Below, piece by piece: positions 12,597 to 22,378 of a DNA stretch of 64,000 nucleotides. The notes beneath the pieces are model-generated. The model made no database searches, was not told the origin of the DNA, and was given only the letters and a program-made list of their open reading frames with translations. The translations under genes were made by a program, and so were the position numbers. How positions within the stretch are numbered: the stretch's first letter is position 1; each line of letters opens with the position of its first letter. Source of the stretch: Pseudoalteromonas phenolica (GTDB lineage Bacteria; Pseudomonadota; Gammaproteobacteria; Enterobacterales; Alteromonadaceae); contig NZ_PNEC01000016.1 of the NCBI RefSeq assembly GCF_005886345.1, forward strand, positions 1 to 64,000, in the 5' to 3' direction.

Positions 12597-13556
12597 CTAG
12601 ATAGAAATGCGGGTCTCAAGTTTACTGCCTTTAACAATGGTAATGTCATTACAGTTAATTCTGACTTTACCATTTTCTGATTCAAGCATGTAAGCAAATT
12701 CAGGACATATATCTAAACACGCATCAGCTAATTGTTTTCTTGCTCTGTGCAACATGATATTCATATTATTCATTTGAATACCTAATGCTTTAGTTAACTC
12801 TTCTCGATACATCCACCCTTGTAACTCTGGCTCTAACCCAGCTTGTTTGTCGAGAATACGAGTTCTAGCAAGGAGTAAAAGAAGGTAATGATGTGAGCGA
12901 GTACCTAAGTCAACTGTTTCACCAGCTACATTAAGTGTAAGTTGTGTATTTTCTTCATCTAAACTTACTGCGAAAGATAATGCATATTGAATATTTTGCG
13001 CCACTTCACTTTTAATTTGTTTAGTCATAGTCGACGGGCTAGAGCAATAAAATTGCCACTGATCATTAAAAATGCTGATCAGCCCTCCATCAATCAAAAC
13101 TTGTCTATCATTTGTGAATAGGTCTTCTAAAAACCAGTAATTCAACATGCCATCAAAATAAGCAATATGCGTGGCTTCTTGTTCATTAGGAAGCAGCAGT
13201 TGATCTTTAATTTCGATGACCTTATTGGTATTAGACTGAGAAACTAAAAATTGACAATCAGTACTTAAATCGCCGACTACAAAAGAGTTTCTTCCCGGGC
13301 CCGCAAAGTCAATTTTATCGTTTAGGCATAATTGATATGGTAAATTTTTACATATTTTCTTTTCGTTGATCCAAATACCATTGGTACTCACATCTCTGAT
13401 CAGCCAATTCCCTTGATTATGTTCAATAATGGCATGGTGGCGAGAAATTTCAGGCATATTTATTAGCGTATCAACGTTATATTTGAAGCGCCCAACGGTG
13501 TGGTAACTTTTCAAATAAACCTTTTCAAGCTTTTGTTCATCAATGAGATAAGCCAT
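12597..13556 (-). CDS. FHA-domain protein with C-terminal winged-helix-like region
   Basis: The N-terminal 100 residues form a forkhead-associated domain, which binds phosphothreonine. The conserved GR (in HTVGRF), SRHHA and DVSTNGIWIN motifs are present. A C-terminal region (about residues 215-310) resembles a trans_reg_C/OmpR-type winged helix, with GWMYREELTKALGIQ, LHRARKQLAD and a final KVRI strand. Together this suggests a phospho-dependent transcription factor, although no receiver domain or kinase is encoded nearby. It is divergent from the CBS-domain gene at 13843, with about 286 bases between them. The target is unknown. Confidence 0.8.
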   Translation of the reverse strand: MAYLIDEQKLEKVYLKSYHTVGRFKYNVDTLINMPEISRHHAIIEHNQGNWLIRDVSTNGIWINEKKICKNLPYQLCLNDKIDFAGPGRNSFVVGDLSTDCQFLVSQSNTNKVIEIKDQLLLPNEQEATHIAYFDGMLNYWFLEDLFTNDRQVLIDGGLISIFNDQWQFYCSSPSTMTKQIKSEVAQNIQYALSFAVSLDEENTQLTLNVAGETVDLGTRSHHYLLLLLARTRILDKQAGLEPELQGWMYREELTKALGIQMNNMNIMLHRARKQLADACLDICPEFAYMLESENGKVRINCNDITIVKGSKLETRISI

Positions 13557-14427: not shown

Positions 14428-14435
14428 ATGATATA

Positions 14436-14470
14436 AAAGTGTCTCAAAATTGAGACACTTTTATTTTTTA
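14436..14470 (+). terminator. Terminator after the CBS-domain gene
   Basis: AAAGTGTCTCAA and TTGAGACACTTT form a perfect 12-bp stem, followed by TATTTTTT. The core 20 bases (14439-14458) are a perfect palindrome. Confidence 0.85.
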
Positions 14471-14551
14471 AGCTGTTTCAGTTTCGACACAATATAGTAT
14501 TATCTCCAACCTGAAAAATATAAAAATCATTAAATAACAATAAATTAAATC

Positions 14552-14568
14552 TTGGCTCGATAGTTGAT
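14552..14568 (+). promoter_or_regulatory. Candidate sigma-54 promoter for the export operon
   Basis: TTGGCTCGATAGTTGAT matches the sigma-54 consensus YTGGCACG-N4-TTGCW at all but two core positions. The GG (14554-14555) and G (14566) have the required 10-base spacing. Transcription would start near 14579, just before the GGAG of the HlyD-family gene. The operon encodes its own NtrC-type activator, which supports the call. Confidence 0.6.
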
Positions 14569-14601
14569 TTAAGTTACCCAGTTCAACTATTGGAGTCAGC
14601 T

Positions 14602-15858
14602 ATGGATACGAAGAGAACCTCACAACCAAAACCTGCAATTAAGCGATATTGGTACTTACCAGTTATATCTTTGATCGCCCTAGCCATTTACCTTTCAAAG
14701 CAGTTTTTAGGCGATGCTTCTTATTTTGTCGCACGAGATAAATTACAAATGGCTAACGTACAGCACGGAGACTTCAAAATTGAAGTTAGGGGCTCTGGGG
14801 TTTTAAAGCCAAAATCACTGCAATGGAGTGCAGCGCAATCTAGAGGCAGAGTTCAACAGTTACTTGTAAAGCCTGGAGACAGTGTAGTGCAAGGTCAGAA
14901 AATTGCGGAGTTAGAAAATGTCGAACTGCTGAGTGAACTAGAGAAAATTCAATGGGAACTTAAAGCCATTAAGGCTGAAAATAATGCCGCTGCTGTTGCA
15001 CAACAAGCTCAACAACTTGATCTTGAAAATGCCGTTATGGAAGCTGAGTTTAATTACAAAAGCTCAAAACTAAAACTTGATGCAGAGCAATCGTTACTAG
15101 ATCAAGGCAAAGGCTCATTGTCTGCATTAGATTTTAAACGCACTCAACTTGCTGTTAAGCAACAGTATGCTCGCTGGCAGGCACAAATAAAACGTGCTGA
15201 TAAAATGCAACAAAACTATCAAGCTAGCGAATTAGCAAGACAAGCACGTCTTGAGCAGGTTGAAAATAACCTCAGAAAAGCACAGCAGCAGGTAAGTGGC
15301 TTAACGATCACAGCGGGTATCTCTGGCATAGTTCAAAAGCTGCCGATTGAACTTGGTCAGCAACTTAATAGCGGTGAAAATGCAGCCTTAGTGATAGATC
15401 CAGCTTCACTATTTGCTGAGATAAACATTCAAGAAATACAAGTCAAAGACGTTGTGATGGGTCAACCCGTTACCATTGATACCCGCTTTAATAAACTCTC
15501 TGGTGAAGTGCAGCGTATTTCACCGCTATCTGAAAATGGTCTAGTGGCAGTGGAGGTGGGAATTATCTCTGAACTGCCTAAGGAAGCGCGCTCAGATCTC
15601 AATATTGATGGTTACATTGAAGTGACAAACATCAAAAACACGCTTTATGTAAAACGCCCTGCATTTGCACCAAAAAATCGTACGGTAGATCTGTTCAAAA
15701 CGACCAGTGACGGTGCGTTTGCACAAAAACATGAAGTCAAACTTGGCACCAGTACTGCCAAATATATTCAAATTCTCTCTGGTCTTAACCCAGGCGATCA
15801 AATTATTATCTCTGACACCAGCGCATGGGCATCTCATAGCAGTGTCAAAATACAATAA
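14602..15858 (+). CDS. HlyD/MacA-type periplasmic adaptor of an ABC exporter
   Basis: The 418-residue product would link an inner-membrane MacB-like permease to an outer-membrane channel. One N-terminal transmembrane anchor (about residues 18-34) follows a basic start. A lipoyl-like half-motif appears around VQQLLVKPGDSVVQGQKIAE. A long alanine/glutamine-rich coiled coil spans about residues 95-225, and barrel-sandwich and membrane-proximal domains follow. I set the start at 14602, after TTGGAG, not at the in-frame TTG 12 bases upstream, which lies in that ribosome site. It is first in a five-gene operon. The substrate is unknown; a TolC partner is not in the window. Confidence 0.88.
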   Translation: MDTKRTSQPKPAIKRYWYLPVISLIALAIYLSKQFLGDASYFVARDKLQMANVQHGDFKIEVRGSGVLKPKSLQWSAAQSRGRVQQLLVKPGDSVVQGQKIAELENVELLSELEKIQWELKAIKAENNAAAVAQQAQQLDLENAVMEAEFNYKSSKLKLDAEQSLLDQGKGSLSALDFKRTQLAVKQQYARWQAQIKRADKMQQNYQASELARQARLEQVENNLRKAQQQVSGLTITAGISGIVQKLPIELGQQLNSGENAALVIDPASLFAEINIQEIQVKDVVMGQPVTIDTRFNKLSGEVQRISPLSENGLVAVEVGIISELPKEARSDLNIDGYIEVTNIKNTLYVKRPAFAPKNRTVDLFKTTSDGAFAQKHEVKLGTSTAKYIQILSGLNPGDQIIISDTSAWASHSSVKIQ

Positions 15859-15885
15859 TATCAATAGGTTTAAAAAGGATCTCTC

Positions 15886-16593
15886 ATGTCATTATTAAGT
15901 TTAAGTAACATCAATAAATCATTTTTAACTGAAGACATTGAAACCCATGCGTTAAGTAATATTAATCTTGAAATAGCACAAGGTGAGTATGTTTCCCTAT
16001 CTGGCCCTTCTGGCTGCGGTAAAACTACCTTGTTGTCTATTTTAGGCTTACTAGACACCGCAACTAGCGGACAATATTTATTTAATGGTCAGGATGTCAC
16101 GGGTTTTAGTCGAGATAAACGGGCTAAGATCCGTTGTTATGACATCGGCTTTGTTTTTCAGTCTTTTAATTTAATTTCTAGTCTCACAATCAGTGAAAAC
16201 ATCATGTTGCCGCTGACTTACCAAAATGATGTCTCTAAGAGCTTGATGCAAACTAAGGTGGATGAAGTATTGGAACGTGTTGGTATGCAACATCGTGCGA
16301 ATCACTTTCCTTCTCAGCTGTCTGGTGGTCAACAGCAAAGAGTGGCCGTTGCAAGAGCTTTGGTGAACGATCCTAAAATTATCTTTGCCGATGAGCCAAC
16401 AGGTAACTTAGACAGTCAAAATGCAGAAAAAGTGATGGCGTTATTTGACCAGTTACATCGAGATGGCAGCACGATTTGCATGGTGACGCATGACCCTCGC
16501 AGTGCTCAGATGGCGCAGCGACAAGTTAGTATTCTTGATGGCACATTAGTCAATGATGTCATGCTTCATTCCGTCGAAAAAGTACCAGCGTAA
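15886..16593 (+). CDS. ABC transporter ATP-binding protein (MacB/LolD type)
   Basis: This 235-residue nucleotide-binding subunit would power the exporter formed with the adaptor and permease around it. Walker A GPSGCGKTT begins at residue 40, the signature LSGGQQQR at 145, and Walker B IIFADEPTGNLDS is around 165-177; the switch histidine is in MVTHDPRS. The length and the MacB/LolD-type signature place it in the lipoprotein/macrolide-export branch, with ATPase and permease as separate genes. The ribosome site is AAGGAT before the ATG. The stop lies 10 bases before the permease start. Confidence 0.93.
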   Translation: MSLLSLSNINKSFLTEDIETHALSNINLEIAQGEYVSLSGPSGCGKTTLLSILGLLDTATSGQYLFNGQDVTGFSRDKRAKIRCYDIGFVFQSFNLISSLTISENIMLPLTYQNDVSKSLMQTKVDEVLERVGMQHRANHFPSQLSGGQQQRVAVARALVNDPKIIFADEPTGNLDSQNAEKVMALFDQLHRDGSTICMVTHDPRSAQMAQRQVSILDGTLVNDVMLHSVEKVPA

Positions 16594-16603
16594 GGAGCAC
16601 AGT

Positions 16604-19024
16604 ATGTGGCTTGATATTAAGTATGCACTCAGACAATTACTTCAGTCGCCTAAATTCTCAGCCTTGACGCTGCTGGTGCTTATTGGCGGGCTATTTGTCA
16701 GCTTGTATAGTTTTTCATTCTTGAATTCAGTGCTATACAAAGATTTACCTTTACCCGAAGGCGATACCATTTTACATATATCTTCTCAATCACAAGAAGA
16801 TGCAGACCTAGATCCTATGCCGGCTTGGGAAACCGCGAATCTAATCGAATCACAAACCAGTTTCGCGCAGATAGGTCGTTATGTATCAACATTTGGGCAT
16901 ATATTATTTGAACAAACATCTAAACGACTTAGTTTAGAAAAAGTAGACAGTAACTTCTTTGAGTTTGCAAAAGTTCAACCATTAATGGGACGTACACTAC
17001 AAGCTGAAGACTACCAAGCCGGTGCAGAACCTGTGGTGGTGTTAAGTTATGTTATTTGGCAGAGCACTTTTAATGGTCAGCAAGATATAGTTGGTCAAAT
17101 TATAAATCTTAATAATCAATTAACGACGGTTATAGGCGTTATGCCTGAAGGTTTTGCGTTTCCAGTCGCAGGTAGAGCTTGGCAGCCTTTATCTTTGCAA
17201 TATAGACAGCCACAAATGAGCAACGATGAGTGGCTTAGTGCCTATGGTCGTTTAAATAAAGGCACGTCTGTTGAGCAAGCCGAAACTGAATTATCTAGCT
17301 TGTTAAAAGGGTTTTATGCTCAGAAGCAGCAAGCACTGGGCCGTGACTATGAGCCAAGAACAGTTGCGATTACATCGTTTCCGAGTGCACAAGTAAATGG
17401 TGCGGGTGGTATTGTTTTTACCTTTATCAATGGTGTTGCACTATGCATATTATTACTCGCTTGTATCAATGTTGGTAACTTATTGCTTGCTAGAGCGTTA
17501 GAGAAAAATAAAGAGACGGCGATCCGTGCTGCGTTAGGTGCCCCCACAAAGCGTTTAATTTCTCAGTTAATGTGGGAGGGGAGCATTTTAACCATTCTTG
17601 GTTCTGTGTTAGCGGTTTTATTAGCAGGAGCTGCCCTGAGTTATACAGAAATCGTTTTACAAAGTCATATGGCTGATAACCTTGCATTCTGGTGGCATTG
17701 GGGAATGGATACTGACACCTTATTCGCAGCCTTAGTGTTTGCAATAGTGACGCTTTTCTTTGCTTGTTTCTTACCTGCGTGTAAAGCAGCAACACAAGAT
17801 ATGAATGCCACTCTACGAGATGGTACAAGAGGAGCTCAAGGTAAAAAAGCGGGTCGACTTTCTAAAGTATTATTGACCGCACAAATATTTTTAATTTCTA
17901 CCCTAATGCTTATTGGCGGGTTATCTGCGTTTTTATCCCAAACTATTATTAATATGGATATGGGCGTCGACTTCAAGAATAGTCTAGATGTGAATTTAAC
18001 GTTAGATGAAAACCGCTATACCTCTGCAGAACAAAAACTTACTTATTATCAATTACTAAAAGCTGAACTTGAACAACAAGATAGTATTAGTGATGTGTCT
18101 CTCAGTGCTTATTTGGGGAAGAAACCTGTCTACCCAGAAGGTCAAATCATTGAAAGAGATCAGGATAAACCACAAGTAGATGTAATTGAGCTGATTGGAA
18201 ACACACAAAGCTACGGTCCGTATTTGCTAGAAGGTCGTCACCTTGAAGAGCAAGATCATCGCAATGCCATGCGAACGGCTGTGATCTCAGATTCAATGGC
18301 AAAACGGTACTGGCCGAATGCCAGCCCAATTGGAGAGCAAATAGACGTTGAACTTAAATCAGGTAAAGAGACGCACACAATTGTTGGAGTTGTGACAAAC
18401 AGAATGAATGTATCGTCTCTATTCGCTGCACTCGATAAAGAAGACGAAATTTATACATCGGCGTTACAGGGTGAAGTTGGGCCTTTAAGAGTGACATTAA
18501 AACACTTTGGAGATAGCCAACAAGCACAGACCGATTTCTATCATGTATTTTACCGTTTAGATCATGCGTCAGATCCAGGCTATTTCAGATCGAAAGAAGA
18601 TGACTTTGGCATGCTGCACAAAATGGCTAAAACAGCGTTCTTTATTACTTTTGGATGTGCTTTCTTTGCATTGTTTTTAGCATTAACAGGTATTTATGGC
18701 TTAAGTGCGGGTACCGTTTATCAACGTTACAATGAAATTGGTATTCGCCGTGCTGTTGGTGCGACTGATAGAGCGATAGTCAGTCTGTTCGTAAAGCAAG
18801 GCAGCAAATTGTTGGTATTAGGAAGTGGTTTAGCCTTGTTATTTTTTGTCTTGATTGCTTATCTGTTTCATAATTTTACGGAACAGCTCGTGCCAGCTTA
18901 TATATATCCTATGCTCGCATGCGTTGTAACAGTCTTGGTGGCCAGTGCAGTGTTACTAGCCATTTATTTCCCGACTAGAAATGCGGTAGTATTGGAGCCA
19001 AGCCAAGTGCTTCGCTATGGGTAA
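16604..19024 (+). CDS. MacB/FtsX-type ABC transporter permease
   Basis: The 806-residue permease begins with MWLDIKYALRQLLQSPKFS, the usual start of this branch, so I set the ATG at 16604 after TAAGGAG. It has one transmembrane segment near the N-terminus, a MacB-type periplasmic core and an FtsX domain around residues 270-410. A second periplasmic region and a second FtsX set lie at the C-terminus (NEIGIRRAVGATDRAIV), giving about eight membrane segments. This long two-FtsX layout differs from the four-segment E. coli MacB. It works with the ATPase and adaptor upstream as a mechanotransmission-type exporter. Confidence 0.9.
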   Translation: MWLDIKYALRQLLQSPKFSALTLLVLIGGLFVSLYSFSFLNSVLYKDLPLPEGDTILHISSQSQEDADLDPMPAWETANLIESQTSFAQIGRYVSTFGHILFEQTSKRLSLEKVDSNFFEFAKVQPLMGRTLQAEDYQAGAEPVVVLSYVIWQSTFNGQQDIVGQIINLNNQLTTVIGVMPEGFAFPVAGRAWQPLSLQYRQPQMSNDEWLSAYGRLNKGTSVEQAETELSSLLKGFYAQKQQALGRDYEPRTVAITSFPSAQVNGAGGIVFTFINGVALCILLLACINVGNLLLARALEKNKETAIRAALGAPTKRLISQLMWEGSILTILGSVLAVLLAGAALSYTEIVLQSHMADNLAFWWHWGMDTDTLFAALVFAIVTLFFACFLPACKAATQDMNATLRDGTRGAQGKKAGRLSKVLLTAQIFLISTLMLIGGLSAFLSQTIINMDMGVDFKNSLDVNLTLDENRYTSAEQKLTYYQLLKAELEQQDSISDVSLSAYLGKKPVYPEGQIIERDQDKPQVDVIELIGNTQSYGPYLLEGRHLEEQDHRNAMRTAVISDSMAKRYWPNASPIGEQIDVELKSGKETHTIVGVVTNRMNVSSLFAALDKEDEIYTSALQGEVGPLRVTLKHFGDSQQAQTDFYHVFYRLDHASDPGYFRSKEDDFGMLHKMAKTAFFITFGCAFFALFLALTGIYGLSAGTVYQRYNEIGIRRAVGATDRAIVSLFVKQGSKLLVLGSGLALLFFVLIAYLFHNFTEQLVPAYIYPMLACVVTVLVASAVLLAIYFPTRNAVVLEPSQVLRYG

Positions 19025-19039
19025 GGAATAACAAAAAGA

Positions 19040-20443
19040 ATGGCAAATATTTTAGTGGCTGACGATGATATTAATATCATCGCCAGCTTACAGTTTTTAC
19101 TCGATGATCATGGTTTTGATGTGCAAGGGGTAACATCTATTGAAGCCGCTAAAACCCAATTAACACAACATAACTTTGATCTTGTCATGCTGGATATGAA
19201 CTTCCATCGGGATACTACCTCAGGCAATGAAGGTACTGAATTTATTCAGCAAATGAATGAATTGTTGACCGATAAACTGCCGCCGATTATTGCCATGACT
19301 GGTTGGGCAACCATAGATATTGCGGTTGCTGCATTGAAGGCTGGTGCAAAAGACTTCGTGCAAAAACCATGGCAAGATGAAGCACTCATCAATACCATTC
19401 AAACCCAAATTAAACTGGCTGAAAGAGAGCAACAACTTGAACTCGCAAAAGACGAGAACAGCCAATTAATACAAGACCTATATCTTCAACATGATGATCT
19501 CATTGCAGAATCAGCAGTGATGCAGCAATTGCTAAAACAAGCACAGAGCTTAGCAAAAAGTGATATGAACATTTTGATCACAGGTGAAAACGGCACGGGG
19601 AAAAGTTTACTTGCAAGCAAAATTCATCAGTTTTCACAGCGTGCTTCAGGGCCCTTTGTTAGTGCAAATATGGGCGCGATTGTAGAAAGTTTATTTGAAA
19701 GCGAGCTATTTGGTCACGTAAAGGGCGCGTTTACAGATGCCAAACAAAACCGTGCAGGGCGCTTTCAAATGGCGCAGCAGGGCACATTATTTTTAGATGA
19801 AATAGGCAATATTCCGCTTGCCCAGCAGGCAAAATTGCTGCGCGTTCTCGAAGAAAAGCAATTTGAACCTGTGGGTTCAAGCAAAACCCAATGTGCTGAT
19901 GTAAGATTAGTTTCTGCGACCAATACAGATCTTGAGTCTGCTATTCAAGCTGGGTCATTTCGACAAGATTTATTTTATCGCTTAAATACGGTTACCTTGC
20001 ATATGCCAGCGTTGAAAGCGCGCAAAGATGACATAGTGCCATTGGCTAATTACTTTGTTGCGAAACACAGTAAGCATTATGGTAAAACCGATGTTTGTTT
20101 ATCTGAGTGTGCTAAAGCTGCATTACTTGCATATCACTGGCCGGGTAATTTAAGAGAGTTAAGCCATTGTATAGAGCGTGCACTGTTTTTAAGTGACAGA
20201 AGTATCACAGCTGAAAGCTTGAATCTCAGCGTAACAGGTAATGATGCCCAGCAAAATTCCCCAACATCGGAGCCAGAAGAAAACATAATCACTCAACCTA
20301 ATTTAACTTTAGATGAAATAGAGTTTCAGGCAATGGAACAAAGACTTAAACACTTTGCAGGGAATGTCACCGAAACAGCCAAATCTTTGGGTCTTAGTCG
20401 CAGTGGCTATTACCGTCGTTTAGCTAAATACGAAGCGCAATAA
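19040..20443 (+). CDS. NtrC-family sigma-54-dependent response regulator
   Basis: The 467-residue regulator has a receiver domain (acidic pocket DDD at residues 8-10, phosphoacceptor D52 in VMLDM, lysine in VQKPW). A central AAA+ domain follows, with Walker A GENGTGKS and the Walker B-like TLFLDEIGN. A Fis-type helix-turn-helix ends the protein (NVTETAKSLGLSRSGYYRRL). The sigma-54-contacting loop reads GAFTDA (residues 229-234) instead of GAFTGA. It probably activates its own operon from the sigma-54-like site at 14552. It is followed one base later by its partner kinase. Confidence 0.93.
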   Translation: MANILVADDDINIIASLQFLLDDHGFDVQGVTSIEAAKTQLTQHNFDLVMLDMNFHRDTTSGNEGTEFIQQMNELLTDKLPPIIAMTGWATIDIAVAALKAGAKDFVQKPWQDEALINTIQTQIKLAEREQQLELAKDENSQLIQDLYLQHDDLIAESAVMQQLLKQAQSLAKSDMNILITGENGTGKSLLASKIHQFSQRASGPFVSANMGAIVESLFESELFGHVKGAFTDAKQNRAGRFQMAQQGTLFLDEIGNIPLAQQAKLLRVLEEKQFEPVGSSKTQCADVRLVSATNTDLESAIQAGSFRQDLFYRLNTVTLHMPALKARKDDIVPLANYFVAKHSKHYGKTDVCLSECAKAALLAYHWPGNLRELSHCIERALFLSDRSITAESLNLSVTGNDAQQNSPTSEPEENIITQPNLTLDEIEFQAMEQRLKHFAGNVTETAKSLGLSRSGYYRRLAKYEAQ

Positions 20444-20444
20444 C

Positions 20445-21800
20445 ATGCAATTTTTTAAGCGCTTAAAAACGAAAGCGGTTGATCATAAACAGCAACAGAC
20501 TCGGTTATTATTGGGTTTGTCGATCCCTATGATTTTAGTGTCGTTTTTTAGTTTATTTTACGCCGGGATAAACACCTATTTGCTGGCGTTTTTCAGCATC
20601 ATTGCCATGTTAGGGTTATTTTATGTGGTGTATGCCACACGAAATAACATAGACAAACAACAACAGCTTATTAGTAACTTATTGGCGGCTTTGATTGAAG
20701 AAGATTACACAATGCGTGGAAATTTACAGCAAGATGCCGCCATCGCACCGTTACTGAAACTAATCAACACGCTCGCAGATAACTTACAAACCAAGAGTCG
20801 GCAAGTATCTGAAAAACAGGTCCTGATCGATAAAATTTTAGATCAGGTTCAAGCGATGTGCTTTGCTTACGACATTGATCAAAGTATTGTGATGGCAAAT
20901 CATGCCGCGCATACCCAGCTATTTTTAGGTCAAGAGTTAGAAGCTTGTTCACTTCAAGATTTCAATTGGATGAAATCACTCACTGAGAAAAACTCAGCGG
21001 TAGTCACGTTAAACACGACACAGTTACAAGGTGAGTATTTTGCATTTAAAGATAAGTATTTAAGCGCTGGCAACCCACAGACGCTGTTGCTTTTAATAAA
21101 AGCTGAGCAAATACTAGATGAACGTAAGCAGCAAGCTTGGCAAGATCTATTACGCGTATTAAGTCACGAACTTAATAATTCACTCACGCCAATTGCGACA
21201 ATCAGCCGTAGTCTTAATAAGAAAATTCAACAATGTGAATTTCCTAAACAATCTCAGTTCCAGCAAGGACTTGAAATAATTTCCGAGCGGGCAAGCTCTT
21301 TGCAGGCCTTTATTACCAGTTACCGTGAATTGGCTCAATTACCAAAGCCGAGTAAATCAGCTACCACAGTACAAAGTTTATTTGATCCGATCTTGCCTTT
21401 GTTTGATTGTGAATTTACTTATAGCGAAAATTGGCCAAAACCTGCCTCACAGTTAGTGCTGAATGTTGATAAAAAACAGCTTCAGCAAGTGCTTATCAAT
21501 CTGATAAAAAATGCCATTGAAGCCAATACAGCAAATAACCAACAAGGCATTGAACTAAACCTTGAGGCAAGCGATGACATGTTGAAAATTAGCATCCGAG
21601 ATTTTGGGCAGGGGATCGCTAATTTTGATAACTTATTTGTGCCTTTTTATACCACCAAGCAGCAAGGCACTGGCTTAGGCTTAGCATTAAGTCGACAGAT
21701 AATGCTTAACCATGACGGGCAATTACAATTAGAGAATCATCTTGATCAAGGTGCAATCGCAACCGTGACTTTGCCAGTGTTGCAAAGAGATAACGAATAA
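20445..21800 (+). CDS. Sensor histidine kinase (partner of the NtrC-type regulator)
   Basis: The 451-residue protein has two N-terminal transmembrane segments (about residues 22-68) with almost no periplasmic loop between them, and a PAS-like region. The H-box is SHELNNSLTP with phosphoacceptor H241. The catalytic domain has an N-box (NLIKNAIEAN), a G1 box (DFGQGI) and a G2 box (GTGLGLALS). The short loop suggests that it senses signals within the membrane or from the exporter itself. The start is one base after the regulator stop, so they are co-translated. Confidence 0.92.
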   Translation: MQFFKRLKTKAVDHKQQQTRLLLGLSIPMILVSFFSLFYAGINTYLLAFFSIIAMLGLFYVVYATRNNIDKQQQLISNLLAALIEEDYTMRGNLQQDAAIAPLLKLINTLADNLQTKSRQVSEKQVLIDKILDQVQAMCFAYDIDQSIVMANHAAHTQLFLGQELEACSLQDFNWMKSLTEKNSAVVTLNTTQLQGEYFAFKDKYLSAGNPQTLLLLIKAEQILDERKQQAWQDLLRVLSHELNNSLTPIATISRSLNKKIQQCEFPKQSQFQQGLEIISERASSLQAFITSYRELAQLPKPSKSATTVQSLFDPILPLFDCEFTYSENWPKPASQLVLNVDKKQLQQVLINLIKNAIEANTANNQQGIELNLEASDDMLKISIRDFGQGIANFDNLFVPFYTTKQQGTGLGLALSRQIMLNHDGQLQLENHLDQGAIATVTLPVLQRDNE

Positions 21801-21856
21801 CTGGTAATTCATACAGTATTTTGGCATTATGCCAAAAAAATAAATGAGAATGTGCT

Positions 21857-22378
21857 TTGGCAGTAATCTTAGGCATAGATCCCGGTTCAAGATTTACCGG
21901 GTACGGTGTGATTGATCATCAAGGAAGTAAGTTTACCTACTTAGGCAGTGGCTGTATTAAAGTGGGGGAGCATGATTTTCCGACCCGATTAAAAATGATC
22001 TTCCAAGGTGTCACTCAGTTGGTGGAGCAATTTAACCCGCAAAGCTTTGGCATAGAGCAAGTGTTTATGGCACATAATCCAGACTCTGCATTAAAACTAG
22101 GGCAAGCCCGAGGCGCTGCGATTGTGGCCGCTACTATGCAAGATATACCCGTATATGAGTATTCAGCTAGGCAAGTAAAACAGGCGGTAGTAGGTACAGG
22201 CGGCGCTAAAAAAGAGCAGGTCCAAGAAATGGTCAAACGTATCCTGAAGCTACCAGGAACACCGCAAGCCGATGCAGCAGATGCATTAGCCATTGCCGTT
22301 TGTCATGCACATTCTGAGCAAAATTTAATTCGTTTAGCTGGTAACGCCAGTAAAACAGTTCGTCGAAGATTAAGGTAA
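21857..22378 (+). CDS. ruvC: Crossover junction endodeoxyribonuclease RuvC
   Basis: RuvC resolves Holliday junctions by paired nicks. The 173-residue product begins [19 protein letters not shown]7, the glutamate in FGIEQVF and the aspartates in DAADALAIA form the acidic active site. The start is a TTG. The two ATGs just upstream (21844, 21850) are out of frame, and no other in-frame start fits the conserved N-terminus. It heads ruvC-ruvA-ruvB. Confidence 0.97.

Follow-up and report, generated by a model that had tools for sequence, protein, structure and literature searches.

The classical case of an NtrC-type activator that is fed back from the operon it drives is glnA-ntrB-ntrC (glnALG). 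Sigma-54 promoters carry GG and GC-type dinucleotides ten bases apart, within the consensus TGGCAC-N5-TTGCW, and the enhancer dyads of NtrC-type activators typically lie roughly 80-200 bp upstream of the start; pspA, glnA and flgB are all expected to carry promoters of this kind. Among exporters of the general type considered here, MacB of the MacAB exporter is one fused ATPase-permease, working with MacA.

A 2025 survey found FtsX-type permeases (COG0577) to be enriched among predicted sigma-54 targets, including those of Gammaproteobacteria, and called the link new (PMC12316311). Aspartate at the same glycine of the GAFTGA loop is also on record: the NorR mutant G266D can still activate through sigma-54 and is freed from repression by its sensing domain (PMC2941729), a naturally occurring GAFTDA activator, DVU2106 of Desulfovibrio, is listed with target operons (PMC4641369), and VfmH of Dickeya, likewise GAFTDA, brought down no sigma-54 in a pull-down (PMC10714721), so that the GAFTDA form is no guarantee of sigma-54 use. 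Among the literature matches listed, with subscription journals mostly outside coverage, none dealt with sigma-54 control of the Pseudoalteromonas exporter operons described below or with their enhancer code.

A five-gene exporter operon

The window is the whole stretch of DNA analysed, 64,000 nucleotides of a contig of Pseudoalteromonas phenolica. Five consecutive genes (Table 1) specify an adaptor, an ATPase, a permease, a response regulator and a histidine kinase, and their order, together with intergenic gaps of 27, 10, 15 and 1 bases, agrees with one transcript. The preliminary description had made the regulator and kinase the last genes of an exporter operon, which the gene order confirms. 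The adaptor scored 88.8 bits against TIGR01730, under the cut-off of 94.9, and the permease matched TIGR03434 at 3.1e-151, under the cut-off of that model as well. A scan of genome contigs found a single relative, an adaptor of P. phenolica S3663 with 99% identity to that of the window.

Table 1. Features of the exporter operon and the region before it, with positions in the window
Feature	Position	Strand	Basis or detail
Terminator-like hairpin after CBS-domain gene, with T run; core is dyad 1	14433-14464	+	terminator scan
Putative enhancer dyad 1, TGTCTCAAAATTGAGACA	14440-14457		centre ~130 bp before predicted start
Putative enhancer dyad 2, TGTTTCAGTTTCGACACA	14474-14491		centre ~96 bp before predicted start
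Candidate sigma-54 promoter (-24 GG, -12 GA), TTGGCTCGATAGTTGAT	14552-14568	+	sequence and comparison with relatives
Predicted transcription start	14579-14580	+	-24/-12 spacing
GGAG ribosome-binding site for ATG 14602	14592-14595	+	sequence
HlyD/RND_mfp periplasmic adaptor, 418 aa	14602-15858	+	PF13437 2.4e-13; TIGR01730 3.1e-25
MacB/LolD/DarD-type ABC ATPase, 235 aa	15886-16593	+	PF00005 1.8e-34; DarD model 1.8e-72, below cut-off
MacB_PCD-FtsX permease, duplicated (ADOP)-like, 806 aa	16604-19024	+	PF12704 2.3e-34; PF02687 4.7e-24
NtrC-family response regulator, 467 aa	19040-20443	+	PF00072 2.9e-20; PF00158 1.7e-68; PF02954 2.5e-10
Histidine kinase, 451 aa; H box at 240, HATPase	20445-21800	+	domain search, hydropathy scan

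The regulator combines a receiver, a sigma-54 AAA+ domain and a Fis-type helix-turn-helix, the domains of an NtrC-type response regulator. Its AAA+ domain contains GENGTGKS at residue 182 and GTLFLDEI at 248, which we take to be Walker A and Walker B, and GAFTDA at residue 229 in place of GAFTGA, while the helix-turn-helix includes SRSGYYRR at residue 453. A simple hydropathy scan of the kinase predicted two membrane helices (21-39 and 46-64) with six residues between them, making an outside ligand-binding domain unlikely; the scan is rough, as it gave one, two or no helix among the kinases of relatives.

Two observations concern the neighbourhood of the operon. The terminator scan listed no intrinsic terminator in the 56 bases between the kinase gene and ruvC (21800-21857), and an induced transcript might continue into ruvC and the genes beyond. 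On the other flank, 12597-13556 of the minus strand specify an FHA-domain protein with a C-terminal part lacking an assigned domain.

The candidate sigma-54 promoter

TTGGCTCGATAGTTGAT had been proposed as a sigma-54 promoter with GG-N10-G spacing, lying about 50 bases before the first gene and serving a start near 14579. Direct reading confirms the spacing: GG at 14554-14555 is followed by ten bases and then by G (14566) and A (14567), the A standing in place of the usual C of the -12 element. The distance to the adaptor ATG at 14602 is 50 bases, and the start expected from the -24/-12 spacing falls at the same position as that proposed, which would leave a leader of ~23 nt. The ORF listing gives TTG 14590 as the adaptor start, a less likely choice because it overlaps the GGAG ribosome site.

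Sites were scored against the consensus TGGCAC-N5-TTGCW, with weights of our own choosing and a maximum of 15.2. Over both strands of the 64 kb, 21 positions scored at least 12.7, TTGGCTCGATAGTTGAT among them, so that the match alone is weak evidence; a score of 11.7 was reached in 11 of 1920 mononucleotide shuffles of related upstream regions, with the -12 G 28-70 bases from the start. As the sequence match by itself stands barely above chance, the case for the promoter is made by position and conservation. In a search of 40 genomes of the genus, the control genes scored as they should: the best-scoring site lay 48-63 bases before the start in 30/30 pspA loci, 62-79 bases in 30/30 glnA loci and 48-51 bases in 29/30 flgB loci, and 26 of the 30 pspA loci had TTGAT, which is thus a usual form of the -12 element in the genus. 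The genome contains an rpoN gene, and no sigma-70-like match was found on the plus strand from 13500 up to 16683.

Conservation among related exporter operons

Comparison was made with 83 HlyD-anchored Pseudoalteromonas loci, the window included, which were picked by similarity to its adaptor; 80 of the adaptor matches listed were fetched as operons, and three further operons of the window's genome were added. A locus was called linked when an NtrC-type regulator lay anywhere in the fetched stretch, a loose rule by which L273 and L281 count as linked even though their regulators are convergent and several kb off. For 16 of the 19 loci in which no regulator was seen, ~6 kb of extra upstream sequence was fetched. 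To qualify, a site had to score 11.7 or more and have its -12 G 28-70 bases upstream of the adaptor start; this threshold, the distance range and the half-site classes used below were fixed after the first alignments had been viewed. The counts leave out L252-L255 (second fetches of L051, L102, L108 and L109), L279 (contig end) and L256-L264 (other genera), and the near-identical L022 and L023 stand outside the 83.

Qualifying sites were present in 57/64 regulator-linked operons, 36-53 bases before the start, and in 0/16 checked unlinked ones, in a sample drawn from the matches listed (Fisher 9e-12, a value inflated by relatedness). When adaptors were clustered at 55% identity, the count was 17/21 linked clusters against 0/8 unlinked (Fisher 1.2e-4). 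The unlinked L065, L079 and L086, for which the upstream 6 kb had not been fetched, had none either (0/3). The seven linked operons without a qualifying site were L106, L109, L249, L251, L272, L273 and L281; L106 has GG-N10-G with a score of 10.2, and four of the seven have a good match further off, at 76, 106, 140 and 305 bases. In the closest two relatives, L022 and L023, a 39-base block, running from one base before the site into the leader, is unchanged; the stretch from dyad 2 to the promoter is about half diverged in L023, with the half nearer the promoter unchanged. The earlier account had named conservation upstream of orthologues as a check on its promoter, and these counts and this block, with the rpoN gene and the lack of a sigma-70-like match in the region searched, support a sigma-54 promoter at the site.

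Outside the genus, some adaptor match was found in 277/369 genomes of the class, only a few of them close. Of nine such loci fetched, six carry a site within the 28-70 base range (L257, L258, L259, L261, L262 and L263), two carry one at another distance (L256 and L260) and L264 has none; L256 and L261 have strong sites, yet no regulator in the fetched stretch.

The -12 elements of the 57 exporter sites were TTGT (15), TTGA (14), CTGC (12), TCGC (9), TTGC (3), TGGC (2), GTGC (1) and CTGA (1). Exactly one base departs from TTGC in 53/57 of them, and flgB has TTGC in 29/30 loci. Separately, L034-L037 and L039 (the same as L062-L065 and L067), which have no NtrC-type regulator, share the upstream motif ATGCAAACTTTTGTAAACTTT, and the four of them for which the upstream 6 kb was fetched have weak kinase matches there, suggesting that these exporters may be under a different control system.

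Putative enhancer dyads and the recognition helix

The two putative enhancer dyads (Table 1) are an addition to the preliminary description. Their centres are 34 bp apart, and both lie within the usual range of NtrC-type enhancers. In the 4.57 Mb genome the strict dyad pattern has just one match besides these two, within a coding sequence that we read as ubiB. With up to two mismatches allowed there were 89 and 87 matches genome-wide against 111 and 98 for the reversed control, and since mismatched dyads are no commoner than the control, no regulon beyond the operon itself is claimed.

The hairpin around dyad 1 has 14 pairs, 4 GC, a loop of 4 and 15-nt arms with 100% complementarity. Its counterpart in L023 differs in an outer stem pair, where both bases have changed, and in an inner pair, which no longer forms. 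L043-L046 likewise show, by eye, a dyad within a hairpin with a T run, so that one element may be both terminator and enhancer.

At least one dyad with at least 6/7 paired arm bases was found in 35/57 operons that have a site and none in 22/57, several of which carry looser pairs; the 35 include L068, L070 and L274, whose dyads are unlike those of the family. Where dyad pairs could be recognised in relatives, the two dyads were mostly separated by 30-35 bp, and by 23 bp in L082. In 13 hand-picked cluster values, the dyad closer to the promoter lay 58-59, 69-71, 80-82 or 93 bp from it. A Rayleigh test on these values at 10.5 bp gave p ~2e-4, with the best fit near 11.5 bp; since the values were picked by hand and the operons are related, the helical phasing is suggestive only.

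Across the 49 operons with a readable helix, the class of half-site largely tracks the amino acid that immediately precedes YRR/YRK in the linked regulator's recognition helix, Y or W going with TGTnTCR and F or I mostly with TCCCA. Operons whose regulators have GY, AW, GW or SY averaged 2 to 4.5 TGTnTCR half-sites each, where mononucleotide shuffles gave 0.14, while those with AF, TF or AI had mostly TCCCA, at means of 2 to 4 compared with 0.13. AY (L083) had both classes and AL (L280) one TCCCA. SL and SM regulators had next to no half-sites of either class, and a third class, based on GTCCG, is seen in several of the SL relatives. The exceptions to the rule were L083, L051 and L068 (all Y), of which the last two also carry one TCCCA each, and L110 (AI), with neither class. 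Because half-site class largely follows the helix residue, the linked regulator probably acts on its own operon, and this correspondence is the best evidence for it, to be taken with caution as the classes were defined after the sequences had been viewed. With the two dyads, it supports the earlier proposal that the operon is activated by its own NtrC-type regulator. It would also amount to a testable DNA code for Fis-type domains, predicting which regulator runs which pump.

The GAFTDA loop

The loops of the 64 linked regulators read GAFTDA (49), GAYTDA (2), GAFTDS (2), GSFTDA (1) and GAFTGA (3), with 4 partial and 3 without sequence, so that aspartate takes the place of the glycine in 54/57 readable loops. 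The GAFTGA cases are L068, L103 and L284, the last of which is read from its C-terminal sequence as NtrC and not as the linked regulator. The conservation of sites before operons linked to GAFTDA regulators argues well, on comparative grounds, for a loop of this form being functional with sigma-54.

Aspartate is found at this position in 6/16 full-length activators of the window's genome. A pairing of GAFTDA with -12 GA or GT instead of GC was considered and rejected, as pspA has TTGAT or TTGTA in 30/30 loci, although L016, which adjoins pspA in this genome and is taken to be PspF, has GAFTGA. An exclusive association of GAFTDA with exporter regulators, in either direction, is only partly right: in this genome 6/6 GAFTDA activators adjoin an exporter, and so do two with GAYTGA (L008 and L011). 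A further sigma-54-type activator, L015 (G000:C127:42154-42645), has lost the GAFTGA loop and reads ELFGYAGFDESAAP, as in sigma-70-type members.

Proposed mechanism and alternatives

Taken together, these comparisons, all of them computational, make it very probable that the sigma-54 promoter at 14552-14568 drives the operon 14602-21800 and is activated, with feedback, by the operon's own NtrC-type regulator acting at the dyads. The signal would probably be felt in or at the membrane, given how short a loop joins the two membrane helices of the kinase; sensing of the exporter itself by the kinase is a guess, made on the model of Bce modules. The kinase would phosphorylate the regulator at the predicted Asp52, and the regulator would bind the dyads ~130 and ~96 bp before the start and form a ring, which would loop to the polymerase at 14552-14568. 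The GAFTDA loop would then remodel sigma-54 and transcription begin near 14579. The transcript would yield more adaptor, ATPase and permease, for a presumed exported substrate, and more regulator and kinase, giving positive feedback. Most regulator-linked exporters of the genus appear to follow the same plan with dyad sequences of their own, which would keep the circuits apart.

Positive autoregulation, already proposed in the preliminary description, is probably right and likely here because the regulator and kinase come last; the argument for feedback is one from gene order. It seems to belong to this layout and not to the whole family: where relatives have the regulator upstream or divergent, the 300 bases preceding it contain no good sigma-54 site in L100, L252, L253, L255, L249 and L250, and one in L254 (12.7, at 50 bases). 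In odd layouts, over the same distance, L272 scores 11.0 at 59 and L273 13.2 at 190. These 6/7 relatives suggest that the circuit can probably run without feedback, and they lend something to the alternative that survives best, in which the operon's regulator is the activator but it and the kinase are made mostly from a separate promoter, with negligible feedback. Because a strict sigma-54 promoter is silent without its activator, basal regulator must come from elsewhere and another promoter is needed for it; the promoter scan found no convincing one inside the operon. We nevertheless consider this alternative unlikely. Permease, regulator and kinase genes are joined by gaps of 15 and 1 bases. 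Beyond the permease and as far as the kinase end, the terminator scan listed nothing terminator-like on the plus strand; it did list three sites inside the permease, no more than shuffles would lead one to expect. Over the 300 bases preceding the regulator gene, no sigma-54-like site scores above 11.0, the value reached at 148 bases.

Activation of the sigma-54 promoter by another regulator of the genome, the linked one working elsewhere, is less probable again, and we give it little credence. With 16 full-length sigma-54-type activators in the genome, cross-regulation is possible, but half-site class largely follows the helix residue of the linked regulator across clusters, the strict dyad pattern is confined to the operon save for the one match in a coding sequence, and the presence of the promoter tracks regulator linkage. 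The weakest alternative, an accidental GG-N10-G and a sigma-70 promoter that the regulator serves through its altered loop, could draw on the 21 equally scoring positions in 64 kb, the site included, on the pull-down with VfmH (PMC10714721) and on damaged-loop members such as TyrR that work with sigma-70 (PMC3162934), but it is highly improbable given the lack of a sigma-70-like match on the plus strand between 13500 and 16683, the counts of 57/64 and 0/16, and the activity of NorR G266D with sigma-54 (PMC2941729).

In the window's genome (G000; activator loci L001-L016, further loci L100, L110, L249-L251 and L285-L293), 8/16 full-length sigma-54-type activators adjoin HlyD-ATPase-permease exporters, and no HlyD match was found in the 15-20 kb stretches around the other eight. 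A large share of the sigma-54 network of this genome may thus serve export. It is a tentative idea, which we hold to be somewhat more doubtful than probable, that sigma-54 in Pseudoalteromonas has become to a considerable extent a private-line exporter system, built on HlyD-ATPase-permease operons that have expanded in the lineage. Each of these would have its own GAFTDA activator and kinase and be insulated from the others by a code in which a single residue of the recognition helix determines the enhancer sequence, and the GAFTDA loop would be a working and perhaps specially tuned form of the kind that surveys filtered by motif discard.

Comparison with known systems

The glnA-ntrB-ntrC operon of enteric bacteria is alike in having a sigma-54 promoter, paired upstream enhancers and the activator and kinase last. 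It differs in that its output is glutamine synthetase, whereas the operon described here specifies an ABC exporter and an activator with GAFTDA, and in that the promoter scan of the window identified no sigma-70 promoter that would supply basal expression. BceRS-BceAB of Firmicutes similarly joins an FtsX-type ABC exporter to a two-component system whose kinase has no outside domain, but with OmpR-type regulators and no sigma-54.

MacAB and the darobactin exporter DarBCD share the adaptor, the MacB/DarD-type ATPase and the MacB_PCD-FtsX permease, but the proteins of the window fall below the curated cut-offs for MacB, DarB, DarC, DarD and ADOP. An assignment to MacAB was rejected because ATPase and permease are separate genes, the permease is ADOP-like, and the scores are below the MacB and MacA cut-offs; DarBCD was rejected on scores of 37.5 bits against a cut-off of 700 (DarB), 68.9 against 450 (DarC) and 243.3 against 375 (DarD).

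DVU2106 has the same change of loop residue but is single-component, with operons labelled cell division (PMC4641369), and NorR G266D has it as a laboratory mutant (PMC2941729). The 2025 survey worked at the level of gene families and kept only GAFTGA activators, so that the exporter GAFTDA regulators would escape it, which suggests that surveys requiring GAFTGA would overlook an exporter-linked class (PMC12316311). The type of circuit proposed here is thus already known, and what the present comparison would add to it is the family-wide pattern, the putative enhancer pair, the helix code and the GAFTDA loop.
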